From Ferroplasma sp. (GTDB lineage: Archaea; Thermoplasmatota; Thermoplasmata; Thermoplasmatales; Thermoplasmataceae): a stretch of 64,000 nt of DNA. Made by a program: the position numbers and the translations under genes. The notes beneath the pieces were generated by a model, which was not told where the DNA came from, did not search any database, and saw only the letters and a program-made list of their open reading frames with translations. The stretch spans positions 806,001 to 870,000 of the forward strand of contig NZ_CP133597.1 in the NCBI RefSeq assembly GCF_031200575.1. The letters are read 5' to 3'. The number at the start of each line of letters is the position of its first letter. The first letter of the stretch is position 1. Shown in pieces: positions 52,124-63,911 of the stretch.

Positions 52124-52196
52124 GGGTTTGTGGGGTAGCCTGGTATCCTTCCAGCTTCGGGAGTTGGAAACTCCGGTCCAAATCCGGACAGACCCA
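52124..52196 (+). tRNA. tRNA-Pro (anticodon CGG)
   Basis: The 73-base sequence folds as a cloverleaf: acceptor GGGTTTG/CAGACCC with discriminator A, D stem GGGT/ATCC, anticodon stem CCAGC/GTTGG around loop TTCGGGA, a four-base variable region, and T stem TCCGG/CCGGA around TCCAAAT. The anticodon CGG reads the proline codon CCG. There is no CCA in the gene and no intron. An integrase gene starts 50 bases downstream, so the 3' part of this gene is the likely attachment site (attL) of an integrated element. The mature 3' end stays intact. Confidence 0.93.
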
Positions 52197-52210
52197 TAGA
52201 TGTTCATAAT

Positions 52211-52245: not shown

Positions 52246-53553
52246 ATGACTTTCGTAGCGAAATACAAGCATTTGTTAGAGAATGAGGAAATAAGCCGGT
52301 GGTTTGGGAACCTCAATGCTAAATCATATCTTACGGCAACTGTTTACCTCAGAGGGCTTGGCTATTATTGTGAGCTTACAGGGGCTACTCCAGATACTAT
52401 TATTCAGGATGCGAAGTCCGGGAAATTGAGAAATGACTTTATGGATTTTGTCAGGAAAATGGAAAGTGAAGGAAAGGCAGGTTCATATATTTCCCGATAC
52501 AAAAAGGTTTTACGTTCTTGGTTAGGATTCAACGGACTGGACTTCAAGCTTAATGTCAACATTGCCTATGAGAACAGATCTCCGAGAGTGGAAGGGGAGA
52601 GGATACCGGAAAAGTCTGAACTTGCAAAAATGCTGAGGAAAGGTTCAGGAAGGGCAAAAGTGGCAATTTCATTGTTAGCATTCAGTGGTTTGAGGCCCGA
52701 AACCCTTGGAAATGCAGAAGGCAAAGATGGTTTGAAACTATCAGACTTCCCGGAAATGAAGATAGAAAATGGCAAAGTGGAATTTGAAAAAATTCCCACT
52801 ATGGTTAATGTGAGATACACACTGAGCAAGGCAAGGCATACCTATTTTTCATTTCTGGGGCAAGAAGGAACGAAATACCTGAAAGAATACCTTGAAGTAA
52901 GGATAAGGGAAGGAGATAACCTGAAAGCAGACACTCCTCTATTCAAATTAGACTCACAGGGACGTATTAGCCATGAATACATAAGAACGCTACTCGCAAC
53001 AAGGGATATCAGAAAAGCTATCACCGAATCCGGTTTTTCATGGAGACCTTACGTTTTGAGGGCTTATTTTGCCACCGCTCTCGATAATGCTGAAAATAAG
53101 GGAATTATTTCCCATCCCTGGAGAATGTTTCTAATGGGTCATACCGGTGATATTGAGGCCCGTTATTCTACCAATAAGAGGCTTCCGCCGGATATGATTG
53201 AAGAAATGAGATCCGCATACCTGAAGTGTTCCAAGTTCTTTGAGACTGAGGAGAAGGGCATAAAAGAAGAGGACTATCAAAAAATACTAAGGGATGCTGC
53301 CATCGATACACTTACCGGTGCATTAGGCGTTACCCTGGATGAAGACCAGAAAGAGGAGCTCCGGAATCTTGACAGTGCTGAATATCAGAAAAGGCTTGGG
53401 GAAATATTCAAAACCAAGAAGGCTGACATCCTGAACAATGGGAATTCTCAAAAAGTGATACCTTTCAAGGACGTGGAAACATACATTGAACGGGGATGGG
53501 AATATGTGAGGGACTTTCCGGGAAGCAAGGCTATAGTGAAGCTCCCCCAATAG
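52246..53553 (+). CDS. Tyrosine recombinase (integrase) of the integrated element
   Basis: The 435-residue protein has an N-terminal core-binding domain (10-110), a catalytic domain, and a C-terminal helical tail of about 110 residues. Active-site residues: Arg150 in SGLRPETL, Lys195 in SKARHTYF, Arg272 in RPYVLRAYF (the first position of H-x-x-R is Tyr269), His299 in GHTGDIEARYS and the nucleophile Tyr307. It recombines the element with tRNA-Pro. The gene is intact, so excision remains possible. It is leaderless, with a TATA box and inverted repeat directly upstream. Confidence 0.93.
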   Translation: MTFVAKYKHLLENEEISRWFGNLNAKSYLTATVYLRGLGYYCELTGATPDTIIQDAKSGKLRNDFMDFVRKMESEGKAGSYISRYKKVLRSWLGFNGLDFKLNVNIAYENRSPRVEGERIPEKSELAKMLRKGSGRAKVAISLLAFSGLRPETLGNAEGKDGLKLSDFPEMKIENGKVEFEKIPTMVNVRYTLSKARHTYFSFLGQEGTKYLKEYLEVRIREGDNLKADTPLFKLDSQGRISHEYIRTLLATRDIRKAITESGFSWRPYVLRAYFATALDNAENKGIISHPWRMFLMGHTGDIEARYSTNKRLPPDMIEEMRSAYLKCSKFFETEEKGIKEEDYQKILRDAAIDTLTGALGVTLDEDQKEELRNLDSAEYQKRLGEIFKTKKADILNNGNSQKVIPFKDVETYIERGWEYVRDFPGSKAIVKLPQ

Positions 53554-53952
53554 GCATGTGGACAGGTAAAATCATATTAAGGGTAGAATTACACCACCCA
53601 TGCCTCTTACACTGTAAAATCATTGAGATAACGGTTAATTTATTTTCAGTTTAGAATTGTTTTTACACCCTCTTATCTTGCGATTAAAAAATAGGTTAAA
53701 ATACCCCTAATTCGCTTCTAAAGTATGTTAATGGTTATTCTACTGTAAGCATACTTTCTTTTAAATTTGCCCTCATTTGCTTCATTTTTAAAACCGGAAT
53801 TTTTGATTAATTATTTTGAAGTTTATTATGTTCATTATTAGTAAAAATACTACATACAACACAGACACTCAATATCCGGCATAGATAGAAGCACAAACAT
53901 TATTATCTGATGTTGATATTGTAAATAGAAAATTAAAAAAAGAGGCTTTATT
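53554..53952. other. AT-rich spacer between integrase and type III methylase
   Basis: No gene-like open frame is seen on either strand. An 8-bp inverted repeat AAAGTATG (53720-53727) / CATACTTT (53750-53757) encloses 22 bases and could be a protein-binding site controlling the restriction-modification genes. No duplicate of the tRNA-Pro 3' end is present. Confidence 0.4.
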
Positions 53953-55812
53953 ATGGAAAAAGATGAAAAATATGTGGAACTCCTTTGGTACGATAAATAT
54001 AAAAAAATGAATTTAAGTAATAGGTTACCTATTGATTATCCCAACTTACCGTTTCAGGTCATAGAGACCGTTAATAAGCCTCGTCCCAAAGGCGGTTTAA
54101 ACAATTCCCTTTTCCCGGAAGATAAATGGCCAGATAGATATCCAATTGATTGGAAGAATAAGCTTATTTGGGGCGATAACAAACTGGTAATGTCATCGCT
54201 TTTAAAACAGGGTTGGGCAGGGAAAATAAATCTAATATACATTGACCCTCCATTTTATACCGGAGCCGACTTTTCATATACCACACAGGTTAATGACGAT
54301 ACAGAAGTAGAGAAGGAACCATCAGTAATAGAGCAGAGAGCCTATAGAGATACTTGGAGTGGTGGTATATCTTCATATCTTAAGTATATGTATGAGAGAT
54401 TATCAATAATGAGAGATCTATTAGCCGATAATGGCTCGATTTACATTCATTTGGATTGGCGTGTGAGCCATTATGTAAAAATTATATGTGACGAAATTTT
54501 TGGTATCAACTTTATGGCTGATATAGTATGGCATTATCATACTGGTGGTGTAAGCAAGCTAAATTGGGGAAGAAAACATGATACCATACTGTTTTATGTA
54601 AAGAATAAGGATTCCGACTTCACATTTAACCTAATTAAGGAGAAGCGATATTATGAAAAACCCTTTTTTAACTCCACAGAGGGATACCAAACAGATGAGA
54701 ATGGAAAAATATACGTCATGGCACATCCTGATGATGTGTGGGATATCCCTGCCGTGCTAAACGTATCAAGCCAATTTATAGGATACCCCACTCAGAAACC
54801 TGAAGCACTGCTTGAGCGCGTAATAAAGGCATCAAGCAATAAAGGAGACATTGTTGCCGACTTCTTCTGCGGTTCCGGTACAACATTGGCCGTGGCAGAG
54901 AAATTAGGTAGAAGATGGATCGGTTCTGATTTGTCCAAATATGCAATTCAAGTTAGTAGGAAGAGATTGCTAGATATCCATAACTCCAAGAATTTAACTA
55001 ATGAAGAAGTTAATAAATATGGAAAACCTGCAAGACCATTTGAAATACATAATATAGGAAATTACGAAATGGCGTATTGGAAGGAAAACCCAACAGACTA
55101 CATCGAATTTATGATTAAATTATATAAATCCAAACGGGAAAATGGGTACAAATATATACATGCATCAATTGGTAACAGAGCAGTGCACATAGGTCCAATC
55201 AACGCACCCGTTTCCATGGATGAGATTGGAAATTTTGTATCTGAATGCATCTCCAGTGGATTTAACAAGGCAGATGTTCTTGGATGGGAGTGGAATTACG
55301 AAGTAAATGAACTTGCAAAAAAGGTTGCAGAAGGAGATGGTGTGGAACTTAACCTAATTCAAATACCAAACGTAAATGAGCTAAAGTCTGCACTTGCAGA
55401 TACAAAAATAGATTTAAAATTGTTAAAAATTCCAGACCAAGTGATAGAGAAAAATCTGATTCCAACAGTTAAATTTAACCCGCTTGCATATCTCGAGGTC
55501 TCTAAGAAAATAAAGGGGAAAGAAATAATTTTGAAAATTGAGGATTTTCAAATTTCAGAAACGCCTGACATTTCTGATATAATTGAAACGATAAAGGACT
55601 CAAGGCAGTTAATTGATTATTGGGCTATCGATTGGGATTATAAAAGCGATACTTTTCATAATCAATGGCAGAGCTATAGAACTAAAAAAGATTTAAAAGT
55701 AGAGTACGAAGCCAAACATAATTACGAAAATAATGGAGAATATACAATAATGGTAAAAGTTGTTGATGTTTTTGGAAACGATACCAATAAGGTGCTGAAG
55801 GTGGAGATATGA
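53953..55812 (+). CDS. mod: Type III restriction-modification N6-adenine methyltransferase (Mod)
   Basis: The 619-residue protein has the catalytic motif DPPF at 98-101 within LIYIDPPFYTGADFSY, before the SAM-binding motif DFFCGSGTTLAVAEKLGRRWIGSD near 304. This beta-class order (DPPY-type motif first) with a central target-recognition region matches type III Mod proteins, which methylate adenine in an asymmetric site. The C-terminal part (380-619) has a beta-rich end GEYTIMVKVVDVFGNDTNK. Mod also supplies specificity to the nuclease encoded next. The stop overlaps the res ATG (ATGA). Confidence 0.93.
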   Translation: MEKDEKYVELLWYDKYKKMNLSNRLPIDYPNLPFQVIETVNKPRPKGGLNNSLFPEDKWPDRYPIDWKNKLIWGDNKLVMSSLLKQGWAGKINLIYIDPPFYTGADFSYTTQVNDDTEVEKEPSVIEQRAYRDTWSGGISSYLKYMYERLSIMRDLLADNGSIYIHLDWRVSHYVKIICDEIFGINFMADIVWHYHTGGVSKLNWGRKHDTILFYVKNKDSDFTFNLIKEKRYYEKPFFNSTEGYQTDENGKIYVMAHPDDVWDIPAVLNVSSQFIGYPTQKPEALLERVIKASSNKGDIVADFFCGSGTTLAVAEKLGRRWIGSDLSKYAIQVSRKRLLDIHNSKNLTNEEVNKYGKPARPFEIHNIGNYEMAYWKENPTDYIEFMIKLYKSKRENGYKYIHASIGNRAVHIGPINAPVSMDEIGNFVSECISSGFNKADVLGWEWNYEVNELAKKVAEGDGVELNLIQIPNVNELKSALADTKIDLKLLKIPDQVIEKNLIPTVKFNPLAYLEVSKKIKGKEIILKIEDFQISETPDISDIIETIKDSRQLIDYWAIDWDYKSDTFHNQWQSYRTKKDLKVEYEAKHNYENNGEYTIMVKVVDVFGNDTNKVLKVEI

Positions 55813-58337
55813 ATCCAGCAGATATTTTAATACCTGAAGATAGGGATAAAAGTAAGTGTTATTTGGTTAACAAATTAAGACTGGCTATTCACCAGTGGAG
55901 AACCACGGGTTATCCAGGCACAACAAATACTACTAAGAGGCTTCTAAACTATTGGTTCAACGAAGATCATATTATCAACAACGAAAAATTTGAATTCTGG
56001 TATGCGCAAAGGGAATCTATTGAGACCTTAATCTACATCTATGAAGTTATGAAAAAGAAATCTTTCATAGATTTAGCTAGAGAATTTGGAGATGGTCCCA
56101 TAAGATTTTATGATCCTGAGACAGACCTGTATCCCTTGTATGGCTTTAAAATGGCTACTGGCTCCGGTAAAACCTATGTTATGGCTTTAACAATAATATG
56201 GCAGTATTTAAATTATCAGTTAGAAGACAGAAATAATTACACTTCTAAATTTCTTATTATAGCAGGTGAAAAAAATATAATATATGATAGGCTGAAAAGA
56301 GATTATCAGGATGGTAAAATATTCACAGCAATCCCCTTAATTCCACCTGAATTGTATGATTCTTTCAATCTTAAAGTTATACTTAAGGAGGACCCATTCT
56401 ACACAGTACCTGATTCTGTGTTGTTCCTGACTAATATACAGCAACTTCAAGAAAAATCTAATAGAAAAAAAGAATCTGAGAAATTTGTGGACGATGTATT
56501 AGACCTGAAAGAAGTTGACCGTACAAATATATCGCAGGAAAACAGAATACTAGAAGTCCTTGAAAAAATACCGAATATAATGATACTTAAGGATGAAGCA
56601 CATCACATATACAACTATGAAAAAAAGTGGAAGAACATTTTAGTTGAACTCCATAGGCATTTAGAATCCACCTTTGGAAAAGGAATAATAACTGAATTAG
56701 ACTTTTCCGCCACACCAAAATCAGAAAATGGTGCCCTTTTCCCATGGTTAATTGTTGATTTTACACTAAAAGAAGCCATAGATATGAATATCGTTAAAAG
56801 ACCGCTAAAGGGTATTGTTGATAATGCAACAGAAATCTCATCGGAAAATATAGTAGAGAGATACAAAGCCTGGATAGAAGCGGGAATAAGAAGATGGCAG
56901 GAGTATAAGAATGCTTTATCTAAGTTATCAAAGAAACCTATAATATTTTTCCAATGCCCAAGCAATAAAGAAGCGGATGAGTTAAAGGGTTACCTTAGTT
57001 CGCTTCCCGGTTTAAAGGATAAAATTCTGCTTATACATACAGACAGTACAGGGGAGGTTGTTAAATCTGATATAGAAAATGCAAGAAAATCAGCCCAGAA
57101 TATAGATAGTAATGCAAATAGATTCGAAGTAATTGTTAGCACTATGATGTTAAATGAAGGATGGGATGTCAGGAACGTCAACGTTATTGTAGGATTGAGA
57201 TCCTATACTTCCGAAAGGAATGTGCTTCCTGAACAGGTTATTGGAAGAGGACTCAGAAAGATGTTTCCGGATCAGAATGCAGATGTAAACCAATCACTTG
57301 ACGTTCTAGAGGTTATTGGTCCACCTGGGTTGATGCAGATAATAGAGGAACTTGAAAAAGAGGAAAACATGAACTTTGGAAAGGTTAACGTTGATACTCC
57401 CCTAAACATAACTACAATTTATGTTGACATGGACAAAATATCCCAAGATATAGAAATACCGGTCTTGACTAACAGAATTATAATAAGGGAATTTCAAATT
57501 GATGAAGCTGTTATTGACAAAATTAAGGCTCTATCACTACCCCTAGAAAACAAGGTACTTAAGACAACATACAAAGCTTATGATATGATTACAAATGTAG
57601 TGGCGGTAGAAAGAGTTTGGGACCTTCCAGTCCCTAAAGATACTAAGAGCGTTATTGCTTACTATACTGATATAATACTGAAACAACTTAAACTGCCAAA
57701 TATGTTCTCAGACTTCTATCCATTTATAAAATCATATGTTGAAACAAAACTCTTTGACCAGCAAGTCGATTTAAACGATCCCCGTGTATTATATCAATTA
57801 AGCACTCCCGAAATACAGCAAAAACTTGTAGATTTGTTTGTAAGCAGCTTGAAAGACTTATCATTTACTGAAAGAGAGCCTAATATTTATGATTACATAA
57901 AGATATCCAGCACACAACCATTTACTTGGACAAAGCAGGTTTATTCTTCATCTAAGTGTATTTTTAACTATGTTCCATGCGATAATGATTTAGAGGTGAA
58001 TTTTTCAAAATTTTTACATTCTGCCAATGATGTAATTTCTTTCTGTAAAATTGTTCGACAAATACATTTTTTTGTTGAATACAGAGATTCAGCTGGCGAT
58101 CTTAGAGTTTACAATCCAGACTTTATAGCTATCACCAAAGATACAAATTTTGTGCTAGAAACAAAAGGAAGGGAAGATGTGGATGTCAAATTCAAAGATA
58201 AGAGAATAGTTGCATGGTGTAGAGATGCTTCCAATATTACGGGCAAATCCTGGAAATATGTAAGAATTAATGAAGAAGACTTTAACAAGTACCATTTCGA
58301 TAATTTGAAAGATTTGATTAAGGCTTTAGTTGGTTAA
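55809..58337 (+). CDS. res: Type III restriction enzyme (Res), helicase-nuclease
   Basis: The 842-residue protein is an SF2 helicase: Walker A MATGSGKTYVMAL near 114, DEAH box LKDEAHHIYNY near 261, motif III SATPKSE near 301, and motifs V/VI VSTMMLNEGWDVRNV and PEQVIGRGLRKMF near 443-490. At the C-terminus a PD-(D/E)xK nuclease is seen in YNPDFIAI followed by FVLETKG near 772-788. It translocates on DNA and cuts after head-to-head meeting of two Mod-Res complexes. All key motifs are intact, so the system looks active. Co-translated with mod. Confidence 0.93.
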   Translation: MNPADILIPEDRDKSKCYLVNKLRLAIHQWRTTGYPGTTNTTKRLLNYWFNEDHIINNEKFEFWYAQRESIETLIYIYEVMKKKSFIDLAREFGDGPIRFYDPETDLYPLYGFKMATGSGKTYVMALTIIWQYLNYQLEDRNNYTSKFLIIAGEKNIIYDRLKRDYQDGKIFTAIPLIPPELYDSFNLKVILKEDPFYTVPDSVLFLTNIQQLQEKSNRKKESEKFVDDVLDLKEVDRTNISQENRILEVLEKIPNIMILKDEAHHIYNYEKKWKNILVELHRHLESTFGKGIITELDFSATPKSENGALFPWLIVDFTLKEAIDMNIVKRPLKGIVDNATEISSENIVERYKAWIEAGIRRWQEYKNALSKLSKKPIIFFQCPSNKEADELKGYLSSLPGLKDKILLIHTDSTGEVVKSDIENARKSAQNIDSNANRFEVIVSTMMLNEGWDVRNVNVIVGLRSYTSERNVLPEQVIGRGLRKMFPDQNADVNQSLDVLEVIGPPGLMQIIEELEKEENMNFGKVNVDTPLNITTIYVDMDKISQDIEIPVLTNRIIIREFQIDEAVIDKIKALSLPLENKVLKTTYKAYDMITNVVAVERVWDLPVPKDTKSVIAYYTDIILKQLKLPNMFSDFYPFIKSYVETKLFDQQVDLNDPRVLYQLSTPEIQQKLVDLFVSSLKDLSFTEREPNIYDYIKISSTQPFTWTKQVYSSSKCIFNYVPCDNDLEVNFSKFLHSANDVISFCKIVRQIHFFVEYRDSAGDLRVYNPDFIAITKDTNFVLETKGREDVDVKFKDKRIVAWCRDASNITGKSWKYVRINEEDFNKYHFDNLKDLIKALVG

Positions 58338-58820
58338 TGAGAAAATATGCACATTCGCTATAAAACCTATTATTACTTTCAGGTTATTGGCTAATTTTGA
58401 TACTTTGCTTTATTGACCTTGATTTTCACCAACGTGAGAAAAAGGCCGTCATTTGCAACTTTGTTTATATTATTCCTTTTCTTGATTTTTATAGTTAAAG
58501 AAATTACGAATTCATACATTCTGACATAGTGTTTCTTGTATTTGACATAATTCTTTACATACCACTTTTCATCTACTCTTTATACGTTCTGTTGTCTTTC
58601 AATGACTCGACTATATGCTCATAGTATCTTGTGTACTTACAAAGGACACACCACTTGGAACATTTCTCTAATTGTAGCTGTATCAGCTACCGGAATTACA
58701 CAAAAATGATTTGTGATCCTAGATCTTTGATATAAACAACGAAGTCTATTATGAAAGATTTCTTTTGAGCCTTAAATTGTTGATAGTAAAAATTAATAGT
58801 AATGGCTATCTTATTATTTT
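58338..58820. other. AT-rich spacer with a decayed minus-strand gene remnant
   Basis: On the minus strand, between roughly 58650 and 58385, two adjoining open frames read like one broken protein. A Cys-containing piece (CSKWCVLCKYTRYYEHIVES) runs to a stop, and after a frame change comes a basic piece (RVDEKWYVKNYVKYKKHYVRMYEF) ending at a stop near 58393. Each lacks a proper start. It may be a pseudogene of a small zinc-finger protein. Otherwise no gene is seen here. Confidence 0.35.
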
Positions 58821-59786
58821 GTGAGTGAAAACGGATATATAACAAAAAAAGAAATAATAGAGGAGTTACTGTATAAAGATCGGAATTTCTTCTCAAGCAA
58901 TAATCCGGAATTTAACATTTTCAAGTATACTGCATTTTTTGCTGTCCTGACATTTACCTTTCAATTCATCATCGTTATAATAAATAGTTTTCGCGGTTTT
59001 GGTTATCTGGCATATTCCCACTCCCTTGTGTTTGAATTGAGCATTATCTTTATTATTGCCCTAATAGAGCTTTATTATGGGCTCACTCATGCTATGAGAA
59101 AGTCTTATCACAACGGAAAGGGTGTTTATCTGAGGTTATATAAGTGTATGAGCTGTGATTTTACATCTTATTCTGAATTCTATTCAAACCTTCACATAGT
59201 CTCGCACCCAGACCACACATTGAAGGATAACCAGATTTTGATTAAATACGAAAATTTTAACTATAGACCATGGTTTTTGAGAATTTCAGTTATTAGTAGG
59301 CGTAATAGGATTGATAAAAACTCTGATCGTGAGTTTGCCGTTCAAGGTGAATCTGACTTGAGGAACAGCGAAGAAATAAAAGGTAGCAAATGGGATTTGG
59401 TTCGCCTCATAGGCGTTATACTGTTGATATCTATTATACCAGTTTATCTATATTGGGTATACTCTCTATATAGGTCGCCAGAAATCGTTATAGTATCCCT
59501 AATCATTTTTGGTACTGGTTTAATGATTCGGTCTTACATACAGATTGCACTTATGAATGAAGATATCAAAAATGTATATTTATTCAAGGTAGAACTAGTA
59601 GATCAGGAAGAAAAAGGAAATCCTTATATAATATTCAAATACGTCAAAATGGCTCCTTCGTACTGGGAATGGGTTGAAAAGAAGTCAGAAATGGAACCTA
59701 TTGAGGTGCAAGATGGAGAATTATATATTGTCGACAAGATTGTCCTAAATAAATTCGCAGAGATTATTGAAGTAAGTCATGAATAA
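58821..59786 (+). CDS. Membrane protein with an internal C2H2-like zinc finger
   Basis: The 321-residue protein starts at GTG (58821). It has two helices in the N-terminal part (about residues 33-55 and 68-88), then a cytoplasmic-type finger YKCMSCDFTSYSEFYSNLHIVSHPDH near 107-132 (C-x2-C-x12-H-x3-H). A charged region follows, then two more helices (about 195-215 and 222-242) and a soluble C-terminal domain. No enzyme motif is seen. It lies between the restriction genes and the replication block of the element. A defence accessory or entry-exclusion role is possible but unsupported. I recognise no family. Confidence 0.7.
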   Translation: MSENGYITKKEIIEELLYKDRNFFSSNNPEFNIFKYTAFFAVLTFTFQFIIVIINSFRGFGYLAYSHSLVFELSIIFIIALIELYYGLTHAMRKSYHNGKGVYLRLYKCMSCDFTSYSEFYSNLHIVSHPDHTLKDNQILIKYENFNYRPWFLRISVISRRNRIDKNSDREFAVQGESDLRNSEEIKGSKWDLVRLIGVILLISIIPVYLYWVYSLYRSPEIVIVSLIIFGTGLMIRSYIQIALMNEDIKNVYLFKVELVDQEEKGNPYIIFKYVKMAPSYWEWVEKKSEMEPIEVQDGELYIVDKIVLNKFAEIIEVSHE

Positions 59787-60093
59787 TCATAAGGTCTCTC
59801 TACGCTAGCTTTTTTGAGACTTAAATGCCTTTGAATTCCCATCTTTAATAAAAGTCTATAACAGCACACCACGCAAAGCTTCTCTCTCTATCTCCGAGGT
59901 AATCACAACATAGTTTTGACGCATGGTTATGGTTTATTATACCGGGGTAAGACCAATTAAAAATTATAAGGAAAATGCGAAATAAGGCAATTTTACAGGG
60001 ATTTAATTTTATAATACGGCTTTATATAAAAGAAATAAGTGAGTTAAAATGTCTTAAAGGTAATATAACACGTGGTTTGGAAAATATTTATCG
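59787..60093. other. Intergenic region, no gene seen
   Basis: This stretch is AT-rich with no gene-like open frame on either strand. A TATA-like TTTATATAAAAG near 60020-60032 is present but no coding start follows on the plus strand. Confidence 0.4.
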
Positions 60094-60177
60094 TTAAAGT
60101 TCACCCGGTCCTTCATCCCCATCATCTTCAGGGAATGTTATTCTTGCCTCTTGGGAACTCAATTTAAAACAGCGATT

Positions 60178-60561
60178 TTAAAAGGTATTCTTAATCTTCT
60201 GTTTTCCCAGGTGGCTAAAATCAAAACCGGTCAGTATTTCATACCGAATTTCTGATATATCTGAAACTATGGTTTTTTTGAGTTCTTCCCAGATATTCCG
60301 TTTCTGTTCTTCCATTTCACGGTCTAATATTTCCATATACTGGTTATCTTTTGTATTCATGAATTTGCCCAGTTTTCCCCAGTAATTCTTATGGTATTTC
60401 AGGTATAATCCCAGTTCATGTTCTGAATATTTGTAAAGGTGGGATGGCACTGCAAAACATGGCACCGGTTTAGATCCTCTAACCCTTATCAATGTATAAT
60501 ACGATAGGTATGAGTCATCTTTCCTCTTAATTTTAAATTTTTCCAATTGATTCAGTGTCAT
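60178..60561 (-). CDS. Small element-encoded protein with an open in-frame tail
   Basis: The 127-residue soluble basic protein (SYLSYYTLIRVRGSKPVPCFAVPSHLYKYSEHELGLYLKYHKNYWGKLGKF) has no recognised domain; the R-x-R-G start region may bind nucleic acid. It ends KNTF at a TAA (60180-60178). The same frame then stays open for 27 more codons, ending GDEGPGEL before a TAA at 60096-60094, and this tail has gene-like composition. The first stop may be a recent mutation or a readthrough point. It is the last of the minus-strand element genes. Confidence 0.6.
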   Translation of the reverse strand: MTLNQLEKFKIKRKDDSYLSYYTLIRVRGSKPVPCFAVPSHLYKYSEHELGLYLKYHKNYWGKLGKFMNTKDNQYMEILDREMEEQKRNIWEELKKTIVSDISEIRYEILTGFDFSHLGKQKIKNTF

Positions 60562-60691
60562 TCATAGCACCTTGATTTTCCGTATTGCCGCCTATCCCTA
60601 TTTTTTTAAACCATTCTTGCATACACATATACCAATCTAAGCCCTGAAAACCATTAAAATTCTGGTATTTTAATTTTTTAAAAATACGGTA

Positions 60692-61138
60692 TTAATCATT
60701 GCTCACACCCCCTATTTTACGAATAAATCTTATTCCGTATGGTTCCTGGATAGAAGAATAGTCAAAGCCGAAACCTTTCATTATCTCTTTTAAATGGATA
60801 AAGCGCTCCAGTGAAAGTTTAGTTGGGTGGATATATAGCTGGAAATATTTCTTGTCAAATGAGGAGCCAGTATTGCCATCCAGTATAAATTTCTCAGTAG
60901 ATAATTTCCTCCTTATTGCATCGATAAGTTCTTTAGTTATCTCAGCATTGAATTTTTCTGGAAGAACATTAACGGGTTCTGCGTCTCCTCTCATTTCCTT
61001 GCTAGTAGAAAAATCACTCTGGACATCGGAAATCGCGGTTTTACCATCCAATGCTGGACGATTAGGACTATTAGGACGATTATTATGGAAGGTGCCCTCT
61101 TTTTTTTCATTATTTTCTTTCTCTTCATTTTTTTTTAT
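60692..61138 (-). CDS. C-terminal open frame without ATG, possibly fused to the upstream ATPase by slippage
   Basis: The frame is open from within the upstream ATPase gene down to a stop at 60692 and has no ATG; the first possible start is a TTG at 61051, giving 119 residues. The listed upper limit, 61138, is the codon at which the A9 run begins. The product ends in a compact alpha/beta region (DKKYFQLYIHPTKLSLERFIHLKEIMKGFGFDYSSIQEPYGIRFIRKIG) after a low-complexity Asn/Glu/Lys linker. The frame is +1 relative to the ATPase gene. Removal of one A from the A9 run at 61136-61128 would join both into one protein of about 746 residues. Confidence 0.55.
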   Translation of the reverse strand: MKKNEEKENNEKKEGTFHNNRPNSPNRPALDGKTAISDVQSDFSTSKEMRGDAEPVNVLPEKFNAEITKELIDAIRRKLSTEKFILDGNTGSSFDKKYFQLYIHPTKLSLERFIHLKEIMKGFGFDYSSIQEPYGIRFIRKIGGVSND

Positions 61139-61182
61139 GTGGAGTTCCCCGTTGTTCGTCCTGTTCGTCCTGTTCGTCCACG
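61056..61182 (-). repeat. Inverted 9-bp repeat arrays enclosing A9 and A8 slippery runs
   Basis: On the plus strand three 9-bp units of type GGACGATTA lie at 61056-61081 and three of type GTTCGTCCT at 61154-61179, in opposite orientation. In the minus-strand mRNA, 19 of 26 positions can pair, as three short helices separated by two-base bulges. The loop of about 72 bases contains A9 (61136-61128) and A8 (61107-61100) and the ATPase stop codon (61127-61125). Such a layout is suited to polymerase or ribosome slippage. Confidence 0.6.
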
Positions 61183-62933
61183 ATTGCTTGCTGAGCCTTA
61201 AAAATACTGGATAAAATTGCTTTCATGTATTCTGGGTCATATCTGGATTTCAATTCATTGAGCTTTTTGTCATCTGGAATCCTAACAACGGATATTTTCT
61301 TCTTGTACGTTTCCATCCGGTCCTGTGTTTTGCGTGTGAATTCTACCCTTGGCCTGTCTGTCTTGATGCCCAGTGCTGACAGGATTCTCCCTGCTCTCTG
61401 TTTATAGTTCTCTCCAATATCCTCATAGATTGAAGTAAGATATATCCCCGTATGTGCTTTCCCATTTATTGTATATTCGCACTGATCCTCGCCTGAATCA
61501 ATCTTGCTGAGGACTGTTTCAGCTATAATGCCGTTGGGAGTCCCCCTCGCAACCTCAACATTTCTTATGATCTGATCTTCCAGAACCTTCGTGATTTCGG
61601 GTTTGATTTCCGGAATTATCTCGATTAGATCTTCGAAAAATGATATAACTTCGAAAAGCCGGGGCTCTGTCTTGTCTTCATATTTCTTAAGGAATTCACT
61701 TGGCTGCACATTATTTATTTTATCGTGCCAGTTTATACGGAATTGCAGCAACTTGCTTCTGAGTTCCCGGGCCTTTGCTATGTATGCCTCGTATATTTTC
61801 CCTTTGATTTTGCGTGGTATGTCCTCACGGTTCAATGGATAATCCATGTTGATCTGCAAGCTTTTTGATTCTATTGCATCGTCCTTGAATGGCTCTCTTC
61901 CTGCAAGTAACATAGGGCCGTAGATAGAGTAACCAATGATGGAGCTGAACCCCGACTGTATCTCGGTGCTTGCGTTGAGCACTATAGAATTTCTGTTGTA
62001 TTTCGCGTTGATTATTGCTGAAGTTTCCTGGTCCATCTGTCCCTTCTCATCAACAAACAATATTACTTTGTAGAGTTCGGAAACACGCTTCAAAGGCGCT
62101 GACTTAATATCTATGGCATAAAAGCCGTATGGGGTTAACTCACACAGGACAGTCAGCAGGCGGGATTTCCCTTTGCCGTATGGGGCAATCATGTGCACGA
62201 ACGGGAAGGAGGAATCCTTGAGAGCATCAAAAAGGATAGCTTTGAGCGTGTAAAGGGAGAGAACAATCTCGTCATCTGGCCTTAGTTCTACGTAAGTGTG
62301 AATGAACCCTCTTATCTCATTGAAGAGCCCGTATTCCGAATCGTATCTTTGGGGTTTTCCTGGAAATTTGACTGGTTCTGTTTCCTCTTCCTGAAGTATT
62401 CTATCCTTTTTTGTTTGAGCTATCTGCGGAGCCGGCACTACAGTGTACTCCTTTTCAGGATCTTCAGGATCCGGAACCTCAACACTATCCACAACCTCGA
62501 AGGAACTATATCTATACTTCAGGAACCTGAACTGCCCATCGTCTGAAAACTCGGCATAATGGAAACCGTCAAGGTTAAAGCGTGTTTTATAAATGGCACT
62601 CATGTTTTCCTGTTTTTCCTTATCACTTTTCTTGCTTGGTGTGAAGTTGATAACCTCAAGATAGAGGTTCGCACCCAGTTGTGCCTTGTATTTCCTTAGA
62701 ATAGTTTTCGCGGTTTTCAATTCTTCATAGGTCAAGGTCTCTTTGTTGGCTAGTGCATGCCCCAGTTCCGTGTCGATTTTGTTGAAGCCCTTTCCGTTTT
62801 CCTCGAAAGCGTGATCCGTATCCATGCCCGCAAGAAGCTTTAAGCCCCTCGCAATAGGATTTTCCCTCATTTCAGCTTCTTTGAATTTCTTTTTGGCATC
62901 CTCTGCTGTATCTTTGTTATCCTTGCTTGTCAT
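61125..62933 (-). CDS. Helicase-like ATPase of the element's replication block
   Basis: The 602-residue protein has a P-loop near residue 255 (HMIAPYGKGKSRLLTV) and a Walker B near 293 (VILFVDEKGQ), followed by a sensor-like NRNSIVLNAS and an Arg-containing GREPFKDDA. This is the pattern of the helicase-like ATPases that accompany Prim-Pol primases in archaeal plasmids and integrated elements. The C-terminus ends in an acidic repeat (DEQ three times) then HKKK and the stop, next to an A9 run. Its start follows GGAGGAG by seven bases, located in the last codons of the primase gene, so the two are co-translated. Confidence 0.82.
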   Translation of the reverse strand: MTSKDNKDTAEDAKKKFKEAEMRENPIARGLKLLAGMDTDHAFEENGKGFNKIDTELGHALANKETLTYEELKTAKTILRKYKAQLGANLYLEVINFTPSKKSDKEKQENMSAIYKTRFNLDGFHYAEFSDDGQFRFLKYRYSSFEVVDSVEVPDPEDPEKEYTVVPAPQIAQTKKDRILQEEETEPVKFPGKPQRYDSEYGLFNEIRGFIHTYVELRPDDEIVLSLYTLKAILFDALKDSSFPFVHMIAPYGKGKSRLLTVLCELTPYGFYAIDIKSAPLKRVSELYKVILFVDEKGQMDQETSAIINAKYNRNSIVLNASTEIQSGFSSIIGYSIYGPMLLAGREPFKDDAIESKSLQINMDYPLNREDIPRKIKGKIYEAYIAKARELRSKLLQFRINWHDKINNVQPSEFLKKYEDKTEPRLFEVISFFEDLIEIIPEIKPEITKVLEDQIIRNVEVARGTPNGIIAETVLSKIDSGEDQCEYTINGKAHTGIYLTSIYEDIGENYKQRAGRILSALGIKTDRPRVEFTRKTQDRMETYKKKISVVRIPDDKKLNELKSRYDPEYMKAILSSIFKAQQAIVDEQDEQDEQRGTPHKKK

Positions 62934-63911
62934 TTATTCTCCTCCTAAAGCTTCAACCAGTTTTTCATAACTTAATCCAAAATTATTATGTGCTGCCGCT
63001 ATCACCTTCCAGAATAGCTCTCCTTGAATCTTTCCCGGAATGCTCTCTTCACATCCAATAACACCGGTAGAAACAGCTATCCACTGCAATGGGCCACCCC
63101 CTGTGCCATGCCTGAAGCAGTGCCAGGAATTTAAATCTAAGTCCACAAGAAAATTGCTACCGGTACTGGAGCCATGTATAGGATGCGGGCCTTGGAATTT
63201 CTGCCCGTTCTGCTTAAAATTTGAAAGATCAACAAGATCCTTCATTTCAAGGGATTCTGGATTTATTGGCTTTTTATATTCCGCCTTTGATCCGTTTTTA
63301 CCCAACTTTTCCTTACCATTAATAACCGGTGCAAATTTTTCCAGTAATTCCGATTTTTTTATTTTTAATGGTGGAACTAAATTAAAATATGTAGAACCAT
63401 AAATATTGCCGTTTGGATGAATTGATCCTGGTCCCAAGTTCTGCCCGCCTTTCCCTCTTATATAAGCTCCGTCAATCAATGGAATATTGCCTACCGGTTC
63501 ATCCTTTATTATAAAAATATCACAATAATGTCCTGGCTTACCGGTATTGTAGCTAAATGTATTTCCTAAAGATAAAACAGCTTTCCTTATGTGAGAATTG
63601 TCATCATCTATTCCAACTGACATTCCAGCAGGATGTATTAAACCCCAGTTGCCGCCGCTTATTAAGTGATTTAAAACATATGTAGATGTAACCGGATAAT
63701 TGTTTTTATGTTGCCAGTCCGGCTCTAAGGGGATCTTCTCATTAGGTTTTACTAAAATCGCATGTATCCGGGGAAATGGCATTAAAAAATTCATTGTCTC
63801 CTTTGCAATTTCAATTCTGTCAATAGAAAGGTTAATATTGTTAGATGTGTTATTTGTATTAGAATAGCCAGAATTAATTGGTTGGTGTCTTTCCCTGTTT
63901 CTATTTATCAT
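62934..63911 (-). CDS. Prim-Pol primase-polymerase with C-terminal zinc finger
   Basis: The 325-residue protein has a disordered Asn-rich leader (1-30), then a primase-polymerase domain: NWGLIHPAGMSVGIDDDNSH near 88-107 with acidic metal ligands Asp102 and Asp104, and GPGSIHPNGNIYGSTYF near 160-175 with the conserved His165. A C-terminal zinc-finger-like module shows His243, His246, Cys265 and His268 (GPHPIHGSSTGSNF to WHCFRHGTGGGPLQWIAV). It can prime and copy DNA for replication of the element. The ATG overlaps the upstream stop (ATGA) and the gene leads directly into the ATPase gene. Confidence 0.88.
   Translation of the reverse strand: MINRNRERHQPINSGYSNTNNTSNNINLSIDRIEIAKETMNFLMPFPRIHAILVKPNEKIPLEPDWQHKNNYPVTSTYVLNHLISGGNWGLIHPAGMSVGIDDDNSHIRKAVLSLGNTFSYNTGKPGHYCDIFIIKDEPVGNIPLIDGAYIRGKGGQNLGPGSIHPNGNIYGSTYFNLVPPLKIKKSELLEKFAPVINGKEKLGKNGSKAEYKKPINPESLEMKDLVDLSNFKQNGQKFQGPHPIHGSSTGSNFLVDLDLNSWHCFRHGTGGGPLQWIAVSTGVIGCEESIPGKIQGELFWKVIAAAHNNFGLSYEKLVEALGGE

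Follow-up and report, generated by a model that had tools for sequence, protein, structure and literature searches.

In the window, a 64,000-nucleotide stretch of a Ferroplasma sp. genome (positions 806,001 to 870,000 of NZ_CP133597.1), the Rep helicase gene of a mobile element carries two facing arrays of 9-bp repeats around an A-rich interval, and we conclude that this feature is probably the replication origin of the element, which is integrated at a tRNA-Pro gene, nested within the element's own Rep helicase gene. The window genome (G000) is a single contig of 1.86 Mb. The relevant features, in window coordinates, are:

52124..52196, plus strand: tRNA-Pro(CGG), the integration target
52185..52198, plus strand: 14-bp repeat CGGACAGACCCATA (attL), whose second copy lies about 4 kb past the end of the window, at 68040 when the numbering is continued
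52246..53553, plus strand: tyrosine recombinase (integrase), 435 aa; recomb_XerA_Arch match, E 4e-9, below its cut-off
53953..58337, plus strand: restriction-modification cargo, a methyltransferase-like protein of 619 aa and a restriction-endonuclease-like protein of 842 aa, with matches below model cut-offs
60692..61150, minus strand: out-of-frame C-terminal part of Rep, comprising the linker remainder, the second array and an exchangeable C-terminal domain
61056..61082, minus strand: second iteron array, inverted, reverse complement GGACGATTA, GGACTATTA, GGACGATTA; encodes NRPNSPNRP
61083..61152, minus strand: A-rich region separating the two arrays, a candidate DNA-unwinding element with an AT content of 0.67 (0.85 in the central 40 bases, against 0.58 for the gene)
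61100..61107, minus strand: A8 run
61128..61136, minus strand: A9 run, site of the frame break; A9 also in G009, A8 in G020
61125..62933, minus strand: ATPase/helicase portion of the split Rep, 602 aa
61153..61179, minus strand: first iteron array, three units GGACGAACA, encoding DEQDEQDEQ; found in all nine near-full-length copies of the gene
62934..63911, minus strand: primase-polymerase-like protein, 325 aa; Prim-Pol and CHC2 zinc-finger matches, weak and below Pfam cut-offs

Both arrays were recovered by Tandem Repeats Finder as three 9-bp units each (100% matches at 61153-61179, 88% at 61056-61082). An earlier, sequence-only reading of this DNA had described two mutually inverted arrays of three 9-bp units, which is correct, while its 19 pairing positions out of 26 and its 72-base loop become 20 of 27 and 70 bases. 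The window arrays score six conserved columns over six units; the same array scan of 300 Markov 5-kb sequences and 19 overlapping 5-kb pieces of the host genome found none above 3. A profile search over 117 genomes of the order gave nine near-full-length copies of the gene (the window copy, G009, two in G020, and one each in G047, G056, G062, G066 and G110), and arrays of the unit GGACnAnnA are present in all nine, at the same place in the gene. Each copy has three such units, followed within the same linker, after 60 to 237 bases, by three inverse units; the exceptions are a degenerate right-hand array in G047 and one unit that is off in the closer of the two G020 copies. Array scores in the family range from 5 to 7, with G047 at 3.

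Both arrays are coding and encode peptide repeats (in the family, DEQDEQDEQ or DDEDDEDDE-like on one side and NDSPxRPxSP-like on the other), as would be expected if the repeats existed for the sake of the protein, one array giving an acidic DEQ/DEE linker and the other an NxPNxP linker. These peptides have no relation to each other, however, yet the DNA stretches that encode them are inverted copies of each other, and when codons of the window gene were shuffled synonymously, none of 300 shuffles reached the score of 6 (null mean 2.31, maximum 5); we regard a protein-level origin of the repeats as very improbable. The result was also 0 of 300 for the other distinct copies (both from G020, G056, G062, G066 and G110; with the window, seven of eight) and for the separate G035 rep gene, while G047 gave 3 of 300. 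The arrays are more inverted-repetitive than the proteins require.

The eight distinct copies provide 48 units, of which 47-48 agree at each of positions 1-4, 6 and 9, with variation at positions 5, 7 and 8. No covariation between the arms was detected at the variable positions: at unit positions 7-8, 21 of 48 pair, against a permutation mean of 23.2 (p = 0.89), and at position 5, 9 of 24 pair, against 8.9. A fixed core with variable positions that do not pair points to inverted protein sites and not to a stem kept for pairing, and the arms thus behave like predicted protein-binding sites. These numbers bear on the proposal that the arms form an RNA hairpin, serving translation control, attenuation or protection, and are not DNA sites at all. 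The RNA of the region folds to -34.8 kcal/mol, versus -18.1 +/- 2.9 for 200 shuffles (z = -5.67), and inner inverted pieces occur in several copies, both of which suit a hairpin. Besides the missing covariation, this proposal has to face the distant G035 rep gene, where the GGACT cores pair but the 4-base spacers do so at only about half of positions (by eye), and the viral arrays, which in many cases start 83-163 bp after the rep-side ORF has ended. We consider an RNA hairpin improbable as the main role of the arms. The inner pieces are GC-rich, inverted, and located just inside the arrays (in G047, GGGAATACCCCCCC with GGGGGGGTATTCCC); in the L023, L071 and L025 linkers they differ between copies and stay roughly inverted, as judged by eye.

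The interval between the arrays has an AT content of 0.60-0.68 in the other family copies, compared with 0.55-0.61 for the gene, the second G020 copy showing little difference (0.60 versus 0.59). When 400 genomes of the class were searched for the two-arm pattern, it was found in five (G000, G009, G020, G062 and G066), always in rep, and a reversed-pattern control gave none among the matches listed. A single-arm pattern was too loose to be of use: 85 of 200 genomes matched, and its reversed control matched about as freely, by eye.

The gene resides in an integrative element. The recombinase gene adjoins tRNA-Pro, and a 14-bp repeat of the tRNA 3' end recurs about 15.9 kb away, so that the element extends from 52124 to about 68053, past the window end. 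Comparison of G000 with G009 revealed no differences in 52501-56500 and 58501-62500 and 30 differences in 56501-58500, while two 500-bp windows of the host flank had 135 and 157 differing columns. A nearly identical element next to a divergent flank indicates recent transfer of the element between species. Over the primase-like gene (62895-64231) the identity of G000 and G009 falls to 53-78%, though the elements are otherwise nearly identical, and G009 and G020 agree there at 93-100%. A related element with other ORFs, type I restriction-like by eye, is present in G020.

In the window, the Rep reading frame is broken between the two arrays. As the sequence-only reading had proposed, the ATPase frame (62933-61125, minus strand) ends CAT AAA AAA AAA TGA, the A9 (61128-61136) and A8 (61100-61107) runs are both present, and the +1 frame is open down to 60692; no other A-run in the window, on either strand, reaches a length of nine. 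The downstream +1 frame opens upstream of this run and comprises 152 codons without a stop. It had been said to contain no ATG, which is wrong: ATG codons are found at 60994, ahead of the C-terminal domain, and at 60781, and there is also a TTG at 61051. An AAGG lies just 5' of the in-frame ATG at 60992-60994, and a separate start for the C-terminal domain is possible. A -1 ribosomal frameshift at the A-run was considered and rejected, since the C-terminal frame, worked out by hand, is +1 and cannot be joined in this way.

The prediction that one A fewer would fuse the frames into a protein of about 746 residues is borne out by the closer G020 copy, which has A8 and a single frame of 746 aa. 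This copy is 94% identical to the window ATPase, and residues 19-149 of the window C-terminal part align with residues 616-746 of the fused protein at 78%. Seven of the nine near-full-length copies are uninterrupted by stops; the two interrupted ones, G000 and G009, both have A9 and are split. This comparison supports the view that the two frames are halves of one gene.

Runs of A are error-prone in some sequencing methods, and a homopolymer error in the window assembly could produce such a split. Since A9 is present in the assemblies of two species, a single-assembly error behind it is unlikely; G009 is another species, with its own single-contig assembly and a strongly different host flank. 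A systematic error common to both assemblies could, however, leave the same A9 in each. We also think it unlikely that the split reflects programmed transcriptional slippage at A9, raised by a hairpin and giving short and fused Rep in a set ratio. The arms on either side of the A9 and A8 runs do fold well in RNA, slippage sites are frequently homopolymers at least eight long according to a passage of one paper (PMC3711429), and the downstream part appears to be under purifying selection in comparison with G020. The same passage leads one to expect purifying selection on programmed shift sites (PMC3711429), but the longest A-run varies from 9 down to 4 among the eight distinct copies (window 9, closer G020 copy 8, G047 7, G056 7, second G020 copy 6, G062 6, G066 4, G110 6), and most copies are fused. 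The stem that was to stimulate slippage thus surrounds an unconserved slip site, and its arms lack compensatory changes.

The selection estimates are themselves limited in time. Relative to G020, dN/dS is 0.165 for the helicase, 0.27 for the whole C-terminal part and 0.18 for the C-terminal domain, values that indicate purifying selection on both Rep parts over the whole divergence from G020, the time before the break included, because G009 shows no difference from the window between 59899 and about 62744. The corresponding dS is 0.18 for the helicase, 0.39 for the C-terminal part as a whole and 0.62 for the C-terminal domain by itself, and this jump suggests a recombination joint near the arrays. 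A plain frameshift mutation, with the C-terminal domain lost or in decay and the arrays unconnected with the break, is the account of the split that we somewhat favour. In its favour, G020 and G000/G009 differ by one base in a homopolymer, and the recent transfer of the element explains why the latter two share it, although the downstream frame, with its 152 open codons, is still intact. This account covers the frame break only and is compatible with a nested origin. For the symmetric repeats, inverted iterons of a predicted origin are a better explanation, one that does not depend on the frameshift.

The protein encoded around the arrays belongs to no family that we could name. By eye, the ATPase has a Walker A motif, APYGKGKS, and a Walker B-like motif, ILFVDEKG, but searches of Pfam, PHROGs, NCBIfam and PDB sequences found no matching family, and there was no Pfam match to D5_N, DUF5906 or DUF927. 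A search of viral contigs with the ATPase gave no relative, and the fused G020 protein had only weak, short N-terminal matches in phages and plasmids (2 and 3 records). A single-sequence AlphaFold model of the ATPase was discarded (mean pLDDT 36.8). The single-sequence model of the C-terminal part (mean pLDDT 63.8) shows a domain at about residues 65-145 with the order helix-strand-strand-helix-strand-strand; in a fold search its best VIA-align Z was 7.1, and Foldseek gave no match at E <= 0.001, so that we did not assign it to a fold. There may be a winged-helix-like stretch in the ATPase before the linker, as read by eye, and if this reading is right, the 602-aa short product could still bind the origin.

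Ten other primase-helicase genes of the order were subjected to the same array scan. No arrays were detected in six (G049, G024, G025, contig 49 of G079, G074 and contig 40 of G056), and four were positive: G035 and G092 (score 6), G081 (score 5) and contig 30 of G079, which is marginal (score 4 versus a null maximum of 3). The G081 arrays lie downstream of the gene, close to the contig end. Natural exchanges of protein parts are found among these genes. In the G092 rep gene (L365; L387 4386-4447) the iterons are GGTACA with an 8-bp interval, and its helicase is distant from that of the GGAC family (24-27%, with the shared end counted in the alignments), while its C-terminal domain is the same as that of G066 at 50 of 57 positions; the G066 units are GGAC. 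Within the GGAC family itself, at least three types of C-terminal domain can be told apart by eye. The G035 rep gene has another helicase type and TGGACT units, with a linker and C-terminal part like those of G110 (32% over 107 aa). Taken together, these few cases suggest that the sequence of the repeat goes with the helicase side and not with the C-terminal domain. At L065 (G116 contig 105), a 3-kb locus without an ORF of 200 aa or more, a right-hand array with an inner G-rich piece stands alone, perhaps as an element remnant.

Outside the order, collagen-like GPx genes made up a large share of what our first two-arm scans found (at least 76 of at least 234 loci, the filter having missed some). 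A later scan of viral contigs, which left out the collagen-like GGACC units and was run to the end, is used for the counts given here. It yielded 48 stretches, compared with 16 for a control tetramer in the same frame, a control that consisted of one tetramer only and, unlike the GGAC pattern, had no filter for collagen-like or other repeat proteins; ten of the 16 were collagen-like and two lay in other repeat-protein genes, leaving four, by eye. One of the control matches, L322, has well-conserved GAGCAACCT arrays (similarity 0.90), suggesting that the layout exists with units other than GGAC.

Forty-seven of the 48 viral stretches were placed, L231 being omitted as a match on the other strand only, and in 34 of the 47 all four full units are at least 75% alike outside the GGAC core. 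The interval is richer in AT than its flanks in 37 placed stretches, poorer in 9 and equal in 1. For 44 of the 47 we picked the longest ORF of at least 150 aa that overlaps the arrays or ends no more than 700 bp 5' of them; at least 18 of these ORFs match one DNA-primase PHROG, 16 match DUF5906 and 11 match D5_N. The arrays are inside the 3' end of the ORF in, for example, L208 and L351, and begin 83-163 bp past its end in L237, L242, L248, L261, L274, L287, L292, L301, L341 and L348. The picked ORFs of L242, L274 and L301 have D5_N and DUF5906, that of L248 has DUF5906, that of L292 has RepB_primase and PriCT_1, and that of L237 has no family match.

Many of the matches listed from genome contigs are multi-copy per genome and away from rep genes. 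Among the listed loci L087-L201, several inverted 9-bp GGAC arrays per assembly occur in some MAGs (Chlorobiaceae, Lentisphaeria, Verrucomicrobia, Chlamydiae and Acidobacteria), some of them beside ordinary-looking ORFs. The nearest ORFs of four loci were compared with Pfam; those of L154, L110 and L164 match primase or helicase models, and that of L090 has no match.

The array function is read as an origin because of its match to the iteron/AT-rich/iteron layout of phage-inducible chromosomal islands (PICIs), the primase-like neighbour, the tRNA integration, and the phage arrays by D5 and primase genes. Origins of Gram-negative PICIs invariably contain an AT-rich region with a set of iterons on each side, according to one report (PMC6092414), and SaPI origins are described in parts of another as lying directly downstream of rep and being read by the C-terminal domain of Rep, apparently as two hexamers (PMC7581432). 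The window resembles these SaPI and EcCI systems, as far as the same texts describe them, in having two sets of short iterons around an AT-rich stretch, tied to a rep helicase gene (PMC6092414, PMC7581432), and in belonging to an integrative element with an integrase and a primase-like gene. The AT-richness between the two iteron sets is clear in the window and weak in some relatives, and the link is to the 3' part of the Rep helicase gene, the arrays lying between helicase and C-terminal domain. The element differs from PICIs in its archaeal host, in a candidate origin that lies inside the rep coding sequence with another domain after it, in a helicase that matches no Pfam family, and in having no known link to a helper virus. 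The repeat type here appears to follow the helicase side, unlike in SaPIs, where a passage of the second report assigns recognition to the C-terminal domain. The putative origin of SCCmec Cch2 is also similar, its helicase binding three short direct repeats that adjoin its gene (PMC7581432), but it is bacterial and has a single array of 5-nt repeats.

Phage P4 has its crr directly past the 3' end of the alpha gene; the type 1 repeats there occupy 4314 and 4323 on one strand and 4366 and 4384 on the other. The alpha/crr/ori1 arrangement is like that of the window in that iterons in both orientations, some of them spaced by 9 bp, adjoin a primase-helicase gene at its 3' end; it differs in that the primase-like and helicase genes are separate here. 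The resemblance of the P4 repeat TGTTCACC to the window unit TGTTCGTCC is short and may be due to chance, and P4 was absent among the matches listed in a tblastn search of phages with the fused G020 relative. In phage lambda the iterons are 19-bp dimer sites, the AT-rich region is beside them and not between them, and O is not a helicase. The lambda origin nevertheless provides a precedent for nesting in the initiator's own gene, namely gene O, according to a portion of a published account (PMC5043065). The window therefore appears, by analogy, to join the two-array layout of PICIs to the nested position known from lambda.

We infer that such an origin would work as follows. The linker that joins the helicase to the variable C-terminal domain contains the A-rich stretch, with a GGACnAnnA array of three 9-bp iterons on each side. 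Rep would load on both facing arrays, most likely via a DNA-binding part on the helicase side; the A-rich core would then melt, allowing helicase rings to be loaded divergently, and the neighbouring primase-like protein would start synthesis. Separately, in the G000/G009 lineage, an indel in the A-rich core would have shifted the frame, so that Rep ends after the helicase, and the C-terminal domain would then either be lost or still be produced, in small amounts through slippage or separately from an internal start.

A broader proposal is more tentative, and we hold it at somewhat less than an even chance: inverted 9-bp arrays built on a GGAC core, placed within primase-helicase genes or shortly after them, may be a widespread type of origin that archaeal integrative elements have in common with bacterial phages. 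In the archaea considered here it would sit at the joint between the helicase and the exchangeable C-terminal domain, where recombination would swap modules and the helicase side would read the repeat, and odd peptide repeats (DEDDEDDE, NSPLRP) would be by-products. To our knowledge, few origins of archaeal integrative elements are known. A literature search at the level of titles, abstract starts and few subscription papers found no such archaeal origin and no GGAC 9-bp iteron, which is weak evidence.

If the proposal is true, a DNA signature internal to rep would make such origins recognizable from sequence, and the odd short repeats in the peptides of phage primase-helicases would be translated origin DNA. 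The natural swaps, in which a nearly identical C-terminal domain is combined with a different repeat, bear on which domain reads the origin. Finally, an A-rich core in a coding origin would expose the replication gene to frameshifts.
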